Shown one piece after another: positions 34,576 through 38,864 of a stretch of DNA of 64,000 nucleotides. The stretch comes from an uncultured Candidatus Nitrosopumilus sp. (GTDB lineage Archaea; Thermoproteota; Nitrososphaeria; Nitrososphaerales; Nitrosopumilaceae). Numbering within the stretch: the first letter of the stretch is position 1; each line of letters opens with the position of its first letter. The stretch spans positions 992,001 to 1,056,000 of the forward strand of contig OX638319.1 of NCBI GenBank assembly GCA_951812655.1, given 5' to 3'. The notes beneath the pieces are model-generated. The model was not told the origin of the DNA. It did not search any database and was given only the letters and a program-made list of their open reading frames with translations. A program made the position numbers and the translations under genes.

Positions 34576-35238
34576 ATGAATAAGAAGGGCCTGTTGATAG
34601 GCATCGTTTCCATTGCAATCATTGCCGGCATTGCGGCATCTATTTCCGTATCCGATTCTGAATCTGTAAATCTTGACATGGAAAGAACCCATGGGACCAT
34701 TTCAACTGCTATGGGTTCCCCAATCCTCGGTGATCCTTCCGCACCCGTCACGATTGTCGAATTCGGAGATTACCAGTGCCATCAGTGCTACAACTGGTTT
34801 CACAATACAAAGCCTGCAATAGAAAGCCAGTACATCCAAACCGGAAAGGCGAACTTGGTCTTTGTCGACATGGCATTTTTGGGAAATGATTCTCCACGGG
34901 CAGCTCAGGCTTCATACTGTGCAGAGGATCAGGAGATGTATTGGGAATATCATGGCCTTCTTTACGCCTCTCAGGAATCCAAAATTGACGGCGGATGGGC
35001 AGACTCTGAAAGACTAAAGGCATTTGCGTTTAGTCTCGGGCTTGACATGGAACTGTTTGAAAGCTGTCTTGATTCTGGAAAGTATTCCAAACGCGTGCAG
35101 TATAATACTCAGGAAGCAAGGGAGCATGGCGTCAGGGGGACTCCCGGATTCTTCATAGTTGGTCCTGATGGCCAACAGCAGCTCGCAGGCGCACAGCCAT
35201 TTTCAGTATTCAAGCAAATCCTGGATACTATGGCATAG
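34576..35238 (+). CDS. DsbA-like thioredoxin-fold exported oxidoreductase
   Basis: 220 residues from ATG 34576. An N-terminal membrane/signal segment (GLLIGIVSIAIIAGIAASI) is followed by a DsbA-family domain: strand VTIVEFGDYQCHQCYNW with the redox CHQC motif, an all-helical insert, and the cis-Pro loop GVRGTPGFFIVGPDG. It probably acts outside the membrane in disulfide formation or isomerisation of exported proteins. The next gene (35239) starts in the codon after its stop, suggesting a redox partner; the archaeosortase-like gene is nearby. Confidence 0.88.
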   Translation: MNKKGLLIGIVSIAIIAGIAASISVSDSESVNLDMERTHGTISTAMGSPILGDPSAPVTIVEFGDYQCHQCYNWFHNTKPAIESQYIQTGKANLVFVDMAFLGNDSPRAAQASYCAEDQEMYWEYHGLLYASQESKIDGGWADSERLKAFAFSLGLDMELFESCLDSGKYSKRVQYNTQEAREHGVRGTPGFFIVGPDGQQQLAGAQPFSVFKQILDTMA

Positions 35239-35718
35239 ATGACATCCACTACCAAGATCGTATTTTCTAATCCCAGGTATGCTGTACTGGGATTTGTGAT
35301 TTTTACCTGCATGTTGGTCGGACTGCTGATCATGTCGGAATTTATTTTCTTGGAGCCGTATGTGGTTAGTCATCTTCCAACCGGTACCGAAACTGCCTTT
35401 GTTCTTATCGTGATCATCTCTGTGTTTTCTGCATTGGTTTTGCCGATGAATATTTTTCGCATCAACATCCTAAAAAAGTCAAAACAAAAAATGGGAGGTG
35501 GCATCTTTGGCTCTATTATAGGTGCAGCTGCAGGCGCATGCAGCTGTGGCCCAATCGGATTTGCGGTAATCTCCACTTTTGGCTCCGTTGGTGCTACGGC
35601 CACAGCATTCTTGACAAACTATGAGACGCCAATTAGGATGGTTGCCATTGGAATTTTAATTGTGACCTATTTCACTACCGTAAAGTCTCTAAAAATGGAA
35701 TGCAGAATTAATCCTTGA
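35239..35718 (+). CDS. Polytopic membrane protein with CSC motif, partner of DsbA-like protein
   Basis: 159 residues with about four membrane helices. Helix 3 holds GAAAGACSCGPIGFAV, a Cys-x-Cys in a Gly-rich membrane helix reminiscent of thiol-relay proteins such as CcdA/DsbD, though the sequence is not a recognised member. It starts directly after the DsbA-like stop (no spacer). Inference: it could pass electrons across the membrane to or from the DsbA-like protein. Confidence 0.65.
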   Translation: MTSTTKIVFSNPRYAVLGFVIFTCMLVGLLIMSEFIFLEPYVVSHLPTGTETAFVLIVIISVFSALVLPMNIFRINILKKSKQKMGGGIFGSIIGAAAGACSCGPIGFAVISTFGSVGATATAFLTNYETPIRMVAIGILIVTYFTTVKSLKMECRINP

Positions 35719-35823
35719 ATTCGTTTGAAGTGAATTCATTCATTTGAATTTTAGATTTTTAATTCTCTACTGATTCTGAATTCACTAAAGTCGAGATATT
35801 TATTTGCCTTTTTTAGATTTAGC

Positions 35824-36750
35824 GTGATGATGAGTTTAAACATGATTTTTGCAATCATCCTCATCGCTAGTCCGATTCTTTTTGCAATGGCCGCATACCC
35901 TGATTCCATATCGTGGAGCTGGAATGAGGGTCGGGGCGGATATCTCTTTGCCCTTATCTTTGTAATTGCCGAACTGGTCGGTTTGAAAATTGTCATTTCT
36001 AAGAAACGACTGTTGTCTGTAGTGCCCATCGCAATCTTGACCATCTCGTATCTCATATCGTTGGAATTTGGTTTGAGGGAATACATCATAGAATCTGCAA
36101 AATCATTTGACGTACAATTGATCTATTCGTGGACCTGGATGTGGGACTTTGTCATCATGGCCATATTCATCGTTGCGGCTCTGACTATTTTCTTTGGAAA
36201 AAGATGGATTAGAATCGCACCTGCTGCACCAATTTTTCTGACTGGAACTGCAATCATTCTTTCTCTGGATGCGTTTTTCCCATATGATACGCTTGGCCCA
36301 TTGCAGTACATCGTTCCGTATTTCGTTCAGGCAAATGTGTGGTTAGTCACTGCACTTGATCTGGGAACTGCTGTGGCTAGAGACAATGTGATGTTCCTAC
36401 GTGGTGATCACGGTTCCATGGCTCTTCAGGTATTCTGGCCATCAGCCGGAGTTCACAGCATAATCATCTTCTCATTAGTGATTGGCGCATTCATGTTAAA
36501 GCTAAATATTCCACGAAACAGAAAGGCCATTTATTTTATAATTGGAATTTTTGGAACTATCACCGTAAACCTCATCAGAATTTTTTCACTGTCGTGGTAT
36601 GCACTAAAAGTAACCACTGATCCAGTTGCTTGGGAAGAATATCACAAGATAGCTGGAGAAATCATGTTTTTGCCTTGGCTTTTTGCGTTCATTCTTGTGG
36701 TGATAGTTATCGAATCCAGACGTCTGAAGAAGTTGGATGCCAAATCATGA
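35824..36750 (+). CDS. Archaeosortase/exosortase-family protein (thaumarchaeosortase-like) with Ser at the Cys site
   Basis: 308 residues, about eight membrane helices. The exosortase fold signature is visible: FWPSAGVHSIIIFSLVIGAF (equivalent of the canonical Cys-x-Gly loop but with Ser near residue 207), NLIRIFSLSWYA (conserved Arg) and a late His (YHKIAGEIMFLPW). Related enzymes cleave and anchor surface proteins with a C-terminal sorting helix; in thaumarchaea the expected signal is PEFG-CTERM, which I do not find on proteins here. Replacement of the nucleophilic Cys by Ser is seen directly; whether activity persists is unknown. It ends 5 nt from convergent dinB. Confidence 0.82.
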   Translation: MMMSLNMIFAIILIASPILFAMAAYPDSISWSWNEGRGGYLFALIFVIAELVGLKIVISKKRLLSVVPIAILTISYLISLEFGLREYIIESAKSFDVQLIYSWTWMWDFVIMAIFIVAALTIFFGKRWIRIAPAAPIFLTGTAIILSLDAFFPYDTLGPLQYIVPYFVQANVWLVTALDLGTAVARDNVMFLRGDHGSMALQVFWPSAGVHSIIIFSLVIGAFMLKLNIPRNRKAIYFIIGIFGTITVNLIRIFSLSWYALKVTTDPVAWEEYHKIAGEIMFLPWLFAFILVVIVIESRRLKKLDAKS

Positions 36751-36755
36751 CTAAT

Positions 36756-37850
36756 TCAAAAAAAAGATGTAATGTCACTTTGTCCTTGTATTTCTGACAG
36801 CTCTGAAACTTTCACGCCCACCCTTCTAATCGTAATTGTTTGACTTTCGAGAGCTTCCTTTAGTAACTGTCCTGCATTTTTTTGCAGATCATCGATGCTA
36901 TTTGTGGGATTTCTTAACATTCTTGATTTTGACTTGTTTGACATGTCTGATTGTACAAAATGTATCCCAATGGATTTGAACATTTTGTTGTTCTTTTTGA
37001 TTACTTCGTAGACTTCTTGACATAGTTCAGAAATATTTTCAGATAAAAATTGATAGTCTTTCGAGTCTTTTTTTAATGTTGTAATTTTACTATACTGGAT
37101 GCTTTCTTCTCTTTTCTTAACTGGCTCCTCGTCTATTCCTCTTGCCGAATTATAGATGAATGTACCACTTTTTCTACCAAATTCCTTGTTTAAAGTAAAG
37201 ATATCTAATTTTTTAAGATCTTGAATTGTTTCTATGCCCATCTCCAAAAACATCTCTTCGGTTTTCTTACCGATGCCTGGAATTTTTCTGATTTTTAACT
37301 GGTCCAAGAATGCTTCTTTTTTATCTGGAGGGACAACCGTGAGGCCATCTGGCTTTTGAAAGTCTGAAGCTATTTTTGAAATTAGTTTGTTTGATGAAAT
37401 TCCTATAGAACAGCTTAGCTTTATTTTGTCTCTGATGGTGTTTTTGATTTGCTGGGCTAAATGACTTGCATTCCCAAAATCCATTCCTGCTCTATGTGTT
37501 ACATCTAGGTATGCTTCATCTCTTCCTACATATTCAAAAATATCTGCAGCATCCCTCATGATCCCCATTGCTTTTTCAGACATTTCAGAATAAAATTCAA
37601 AATCTACGGGTAAAAACACTGCATCTTTTCTCTCTTCCAATTTTCTTTTTGCAAACGCAATCGGAATGCCTGATTTTACTCCGTATTTCCTTGCTGTATA
37701 GTTTGCAGTTGCTATGGCGCCACTATCTCCTCCTCTGTCTGAGAAGACGCATACACAAACAGGTTTTGATTTAAGTTCGGGTGAACGAGTTTCTTCGCAT
37801 TGTGCATAAAAATAATCAAAATCAATGTGGAAAACTATTCTTGTTTCCAA
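36756..37850 (-). CDS. dinB: DNA polymerase IV (Y-family translesion polymerase)
   Basis: 364 residues. Palm and finger motifs HIDFDYFYAQCEETR and YVGRDEAYLDVTH (acidic catalytic pair), helix-hairpin-helix IRKIPGIGKKTEEMF and a little-finger domain place it with Dpo4/DinB. The C-terminus ends QSDITSFF, a PCNA-interacting (PIP) box, so it docks on the sliding clamp. It bypasses lesions during replication; usually stress-linked. The residue before the catalytic Asp is Arg (GRDEA) where the family often has Ser. Single gene. Confidence 0.94.
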   Translation of the reverse strand: METRIVFHIDFDYFYAQCEETRSPELKSKPVCVCVFSDRGGDSGAIATANYTARKYGVKSGIPIAFAKRKLEERKDAVFLPVDFEFYSEMSEKAMGIMRDAADIFEYVGRDEAYLDVTHRAGMDFGNASHLAQQIKNTIRDKIKLSCSIGISSNKLISKIASDFQKPDGLTVVPPDKKEAFLDQLKIRKIPGIGKKTEEMFLEMGIETIQDLKKLDIFTLNKEFGRKSGTFIYNSARGIDEEPVKKREESIQYSKITTLKKDSKDYQFLSENISELCQEVYEVIKKNNKMFKSIGIHFVQSDMSNKSKSRMLRNPTNSIDDLQKNAGQLLKEALESQTITIRRVGVKVSELSEIQGQSDITSFF

Positions 37851-38210: not shown

Positions 38211-38864
38211 TTGAGCGACTCAAAAAAATCAAAAGATGCAGAAGATATTTTATCTGAATTTGATTCCCGTTCTAAATCTCTGTCTAAACCAGAACCCGCT
38301 CCAGAACCAGAACCAGAACCAGAACCCGCTCCAGAACCAGAACCCGCTCCAGAACCAGAACCCGCTCCAGAACCAGAACCCGCTCCAGAACCAGAACCCG
38401 CTCCAGAACCAGAACCAGAACCCGCTCCAGAACCAGAACCCGCTCCAGAACCAGAACCCGCTCCAGAACCAGAACCCGCTCCAGAACCAGAACCCGCTCC
38501 AGAACCAGAACCCGCTCCAGAACCAGAACCCGCTCCAGAACCAGAACCAAGAAATAATTCTAACCAGTCATCTACATCAAGCTCCATTTCAGAAGAACGT
38601 GATGTGATTTTTGTTGGTACAAAACCTATCATGACTTATGTGTCTGCAACTTTGACGCAGCTTTCAACTAGAACAACCGTCACCATCAAGGCTAGGGGAA
38701 AAAGGATTACCCAAGCTGTAGATGTTTCACAAATGATTACCAAGAGGATGGATTCTGTTGGTTATGTGATATCTGACGTGAGAATTTCTTCAGATTCTTT
38801 AACCTCTCAGGATGGAAAACAACGTAATGTCTCCACTATGGAAATTGACATTACAAAGAATTAA
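38211..38864 (+). CDS. Alba-family chromatin protein with long Pro-Glu-Ala repeat extension
   Basis: 217 residues from TTG 38211. The C-terminal 90 residues are a full Alba domain: [33 protein letters not shown] (DNA-contact loop) and [18 protein letters not shown]. Unusually, about residues 27-113 are a perfect Pro-Glu-Pro-Glu-Pro-Ala-type repeat preceded by a charged Ser/Lys N-terminus. Standard Alba is about 90-100 residues. The acidic, stiff tail could modulate DNA compaction or partner binding. The stop overlaps the next membrane-protein gene. Confidence 0.93.
38289..38549 (+). repeat. In-frame 18-bp minisatellite (Pro-Glu-Ala repeat) in the Alba gene
   Basis: About 261 bp built almost wholly of the unit CCAGAACCAGAACCCGCT (Pro-Glu-Pro-Glu-Pro-Ala), with about 13 Ala-containing units and two places where extra CCAGAA dyads are inserted. 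Copies are identical at the DNA level including third positions, indicating recent expansion by slippage or unequal recombination. Confidence 0.95.

Follow-up and report, generated by a model that had tools for sequence, protein, structure and literature searches.

Organization of the locus

The window analysed here is the whole stretch of 64,000 nucleotides from C1:992001-1056000 of a 1.67 Mb genome assembled as one contig and, judging by its named relatives, of the genus Nitrosopumilus. As originally predicted, it contains three consecutive open reading frames (ORFs) on the forward strand, for which the ORF positions were confirmed. The first (dsbA, 34576..35238) encodes a DsbA-like exported oxidoreductase with the CxxC motif CHQC (Cys68 and Cys71), which scores over the gathering score with both Pfam PF13462 (Thioredoxin_4; 99.9 bits, E 2.3e-28) and PF01323 (DSBA; 59.3 bits, E 5.6e-16). 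The second (csc, 35239..35718) begins one base past the dsbA stop and encodes the expected polytopic membrane protein with a Cys-x-Cys motif (Cys101 and Cys103); it pairs with dsbA. The third (35824..36750) encodes a Cys-free thaumarchaeosortase (TIGR04297) of 308 amino acids, whose AlphaFold2 (AF2) model has a mean pLDDT of 89. Its ORF starts at a GTG codon at 35824, and the true start is possibly an ATG within 35827-35842. Three codons of this gene are central to the analysis: TCA for Ser207 (36442..36444), in the motif FWPSAGVHS, at a column in which other archaeosortases have Cys; AGA for Arg252 (36577..36579), in a conserved N-x-x-R motif; and CAC for His274 (36643..36645). The DsbA-like protein probably has a function separate from that of the sortase. 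A convergent gene on the reverse strand (36756..37850), recognized by sequence as a dinB-like Y-family DNA polymerase gene, served as a synteny control. At 38211-38864 (forward strand), the window also encodes a protein in which a long PEPEPA repeat is followed, as judged by eye, by an apparent Alba-type DNA-binding domain.

A thaumarchaeosortase with serine in the cysteine column

The third protein is an ordinary member of the already named thaumarchaeosortase family. It matches TIGR04297, an NCBIfam model of type "exception" with a curated cut-off of 250 bits, over its full length with 600.8 bits (E 5.6e-181), and it also passes the superfamily model TIGR04178 (exosortase/archaeosortase, exo_archaeo) with 42.7 bits (cut-off 23). 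The conserved Arg and Arg/His partners that characterize the superfamily are represented by Arg252 and His274, but the catalytic Cys of the C-x-G motif is Ser207. The reading of this protein as an archaeosortase with SAGVHS in place of the canonical Cys loop is therefore upheld. It is the only archaeosortase over the cut-off in the genome; a second candidate at C1:946493-946798 was rejected, being a weak match opposite the gene of a repetitive protein.

Alignment of relatives to the window protein by tblastn revealed Ser207, Arg252 and His274 to be invariant in 126 distinct sequences, and the same residues are among the invariant columns in 20 diverse members with identities down to 27%. The Ser207 codon in the 126 sequences is TCT, TCA, TCG or TCC, and never AGY. 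An error of sequencing or assembly that turned Cys into Ser, which would leave Cys in the relatives, has a vanishingly small probability given an invariant Ser written with four synonymous TCN codons in sequences from many independent projects. A displaced Cys nucleophile was also considered and rejected. Among 129 distinct proteins in the alignment, 110 lack Cys altogether and any one column has Cys in at most four, which excludes a nucleophilic Cys at another place in the enzyme.

A search of the phylum with the Ser-type alignment brought up relatives from beyond the class, the majority of them full-length. The 40 nearest that were compared all have Cys in the Ser207 column, mostly within the motif WPCAGxxS, together with the same Arg and His. 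In the tree, the Ser-types and these outside relatives fall on opposite sides of a single branch (support 97/90; present in 97% of bootstrap trees), and the Ser-types form one clade against the other Cys-types of the class (support 98/97, with long-branch warnings). Because Cys is found in all outside relatives compared, these alignments and trees are most simply explained by one ancient Cys-to-Ser change, at a deep branch of the class Nitrososphaeria, that preserved the remainder of the active site, although the root is unproven. Further differences between Ser-types and Cys-types lie at Asp108, where most Cys-types have Glu, at Leu256 and Ser257, which adjoin Arg252, and at Glu271 and Pro284, near His274. 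These five residues may be compensating changes.

Cys-type archaeosortases also occur within the class. One Nitrosopumilaceae genome has a Cys-type enzyme (ACAGLHES; L109, G015:C5) besides its Ser-type, with a cupredoxin-like gene nearby, as judged by eye. Eight loci of family f17 of the same class (L073, L114, L128, L129, L133, L135, L140 and L141) encode a Cys-type domain with WPC[AST]G. This domain forms the C-terminal portion of an open frame of 840-970 amino acids whose N-terminal portion is large; such a fusion was not seen in the family of the window protein.

Probable PEFG-CTERM substrates

In agreement with the original prediction, PEFG-CTERM matches are absent from the window. The suggested search of the full genome with family models was productive: 12 PEFG-CTERM proteins score over the cut-off, all encoded outside the window, consistent with the co-occurrence that is a trait of TIGR04297. 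Their tails carry the motif and a hydrophobic stretch and end in basic residues. Among the 12 there are two weak cupredoxin matches, one plastocyanin-type match and one Kelch match. Four PEFG-CTERM genes lie in tandem on the reverse strand at G000:C1:791466-794317 (L034-L037), each encoding about 300 amino acids.

In a set of 300 genomes from the class, sortase and PEFG-CTERM proteins occur together in 188, the sortase alone in 11, PEFG-CTERM proteins alone in six and neither in 95 (Fisher p 2.3e-57, kinship ignored). The six PEFG-CTERM-only genomes are all 80-88% complete, and many of the sortase matches in the 11 genomes lacking a PEFG-CTERM match are divergent. Outside the home family the corresponding numbers are 23, 11, 0 and 95 (p 1.7e-17, kinship ignored). 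In family f3, some genera have both components and others neither. The listed genomes of f3 genera g23, g25 and g29 have neither sortase nor PEFG-CTERM, several of them keeping csc, and surface anchoring there must differ.

Genome G004 combines one Ser-type (L072) with two Cys-type enzymes (L139 and L111), each beside its own PEF-type CTERM gene. Such neighbours were also found at the Cys-type loci L293 and L297 and at the Ser-type locus L046. As PEF-type tails stand beside both kinds of enzyme, the change of residue apparently left the type of signal as it was.

The dsbA-csc pair

The original prediction joined the three genes into one module for thiol redox and surface-protein sorting. We find that dsbA and csc are a conserved pair of their own across the order, probably a separate envelope thiol-redox unit, and that the sortase is a neighbour and not a partner. 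In most loci examined through the order dsbA is directly upstream of csc, and in the order's other families f3, f5 and f7 a DsbA-like gene stands beside csc in most loci. The linkage of the pair to the sortase varies, direct contact being confined to Nitrosopumilus-type loci. In favour of all three working as one system, csc adjoins the sortase gene in 46 of 55 Nitrosopumilus-type loci (some of the exceptions being short contigs), and most loci sampled from other Nitrosopumilaceae genera have the pair 1-5 kb upstream of it and on its strand. However, in genome G088 the two are about 135 kb apart. Linkage to the sortase is also wider for the convergent polymerase gene than for the pair, which makes proximity alone weak evidence in such syntenic genomes. 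Outside the home family, 18 genomes have csc and the sortase, a weak co-occurrence (p 0.006), against 25 with csc only and 16 with the sortase only, so the three genes are not co-conserved as the module would have it. Moreover, the sortase is Cys-free and offers no thiol for a redox pair to service. The occurrence of each without the other, and at varying distance, marks the pair as a unit in its own right, and we regard a joint system as very improbable.

In the family of the CxC protein, Cys101, Cys103, Cys155 and Arg133 are invariant. The protein has no Pfam or NCBIfam family match, the DsbB/VKOR families (PF02600 and PF07884) are absent among the Pfam matches of 33 members, and a PDB fold search with its model, which is unreliable over the Cys101/103 region (pLDDT < 50), gave no usable match. 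Since neither DsbB nor VKOR was detected in the window's genome, the protein is a candidate partner of DsbA. It might instead be a metal transporter of the Cu/Hg type, as its Cys motif in a membrane segment and weak MerT matches in a few members would suggest. Those matches are far from convincing (best Pfam E 0.013, in one of 33 members; NCBIfam E 0.023-0.037, the best MerT-only match being 0.023), none is significant, and the usual neighbour of csc is dsbA, which, given that neither DsbB nor VKOR was detected, would then be left without a known oxidase. We therefore hold the transporter reading to be plausible, though the less likely of the two. A distant match to the CxC family (L237), with GCPTCAG in place of ACSCGP, possibly represents a related membrane family of the same archaea.

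Proposed mechanism of sorting

We consider it probable that the window enzyme is an active sorting transpeptidase for PEFG-CTERM proteins, with a serine nucleophile, working separately from the dsbA-csc unit. The assignment of Ser as nucleophile, of the bond cut and of the lipid product is drawn from homology and from analogy with ArtA of Haloferax volcanii, an enzyme that depends critically on Cys173, Arg214 and Arg253 (PMC9263693) and for which a route through a thioester acyl-enzyme, resolved in turn by archaetidylethanolamine, has been put forward (PMC7157517). By this analogy, the thaumarchaeosortase would recognize the PEFG-CTERM tail, a tripartite signal of PEFG motif, hydrophobic helix and basic end, at the outer face of the membrane. 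Ser207, aided by His274 and Arg252, would attack the peptide bond at the PEFG motif to give an acyl-ester enzyme intermediate on Ser207. An amine-bearing lipid headgroup, comparable to the archaetidylethanolamine of the ArtA model, would then resolve the acyl-ester and leave the surface protein anchored to lipid. In the AF2 model, Ser207 starts a helix at 206-227, Arg252 lies in the outer half of the helix 231-263 and His274 is near the start of the helix 267-307; these helix limits and the positive-inside rule place all three residues on the predicted outer side. We found no solved structure of the archaeosortase fold, and a PDB fold search with the sortase model gave no usable match.

The main alternative gives Ser207 a possible structural role in a protein able to bind but not to cleave. 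The protein would then be a catalytically dead archaeosortase, confined to binding or chaperoning PEFG-CTERM tails, or the cleavage would fall to another protease. The loss of the canonical Cys, which all 40 outside relatives have, is in keeping with this, and the C173S variant of ArtA in Haloferax volcanii is reportedly inactive. Serine is thus not simply interchangeable with Cys in ArtA and, if the report is right, a natural Ser enzyme needs its other changes. Yet all 126 distinct sequences retain the Ser, and the Arg and His are equally invariant, unlike a decaying active site; the protein is the sole archaeosortase over the cut-off in its genome; and the sortase tracks PEFG-CTERM tightly across genomes. 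A pseudo-enzyme consequently appears unlikely to us, and a working serine enzyme is the reading we retain.

The enzyme family was already named; what distinguishes it within the superfamily is the exchange of Cys for Ser. In the open-licence papers searched, we found neither the name thaumarchaeosortase, nor a description of a Ser-type archaeosortase or of the exchange, nor any biochemistry of a Ser-type enzyme. To our knowledge, clean natural Cys/Ser exchanges in a working transpeptidase are rarely seen. Here one family, with its Arg and His and its kind of tail unchanged, offers both residues, in one case together in the one genome G004, so that the chemistry is open to direct test. In marine ammonia oxidisers, surface proteins are probably anchored by this sortase, and a PEFG-CTERM multicopper oxidase has been postulated to act in archaeal ammonia oxidation (PMC9122916). 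Taken as a whole, we lean towards a picture in which, after a single ancient change of nucleophile from Cys to Ser, ammonia-oxidising archaea anchor PEFG-CTERM surface proteins, cupredoxin-like ones included, through a serine acyl-ester, and in which an unnamed CxC family may replace DsbB/VKOR.

Comparison with known systems

The window protein shares with the thaumarchaeosortases of TIGR04297 the Ser, Arg and His columns and the PEFG-CTERM partner, and no difference from them was found. Like ArtA and the TIGR04178 superfamily, it is polytopic, with a conserved Arg and an Arg/His and with tripartite C-terminal signals. In contrast to them, it has Ser for the catalytic Cys, most members of its family are Cys-free, and the signal is PEFG and not PGF. 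A parallel exists in rhombosortase, a rhomboid-family serine protease acting on GlyGly-CTERM proteins, which is also a membrane sorting enzyme with a Ser nucleophile; this is an analogy only, as rhombosortase belongs to a family unrelated to archaeosortases (PMC11980579, PMC3237569). Within the phylum itself, the Cys-type archaeosortases L267-L302, most of them with WPCAG, are full-length homologues with the Arg and His conserved. They differ from the window enzyme in having Cys in the 207 column, usually Glu at the position of Asp108, and other residues after Arg252. A shared feature is that some of them (L293 and L297) stand next to PEF-type CTERM genes.
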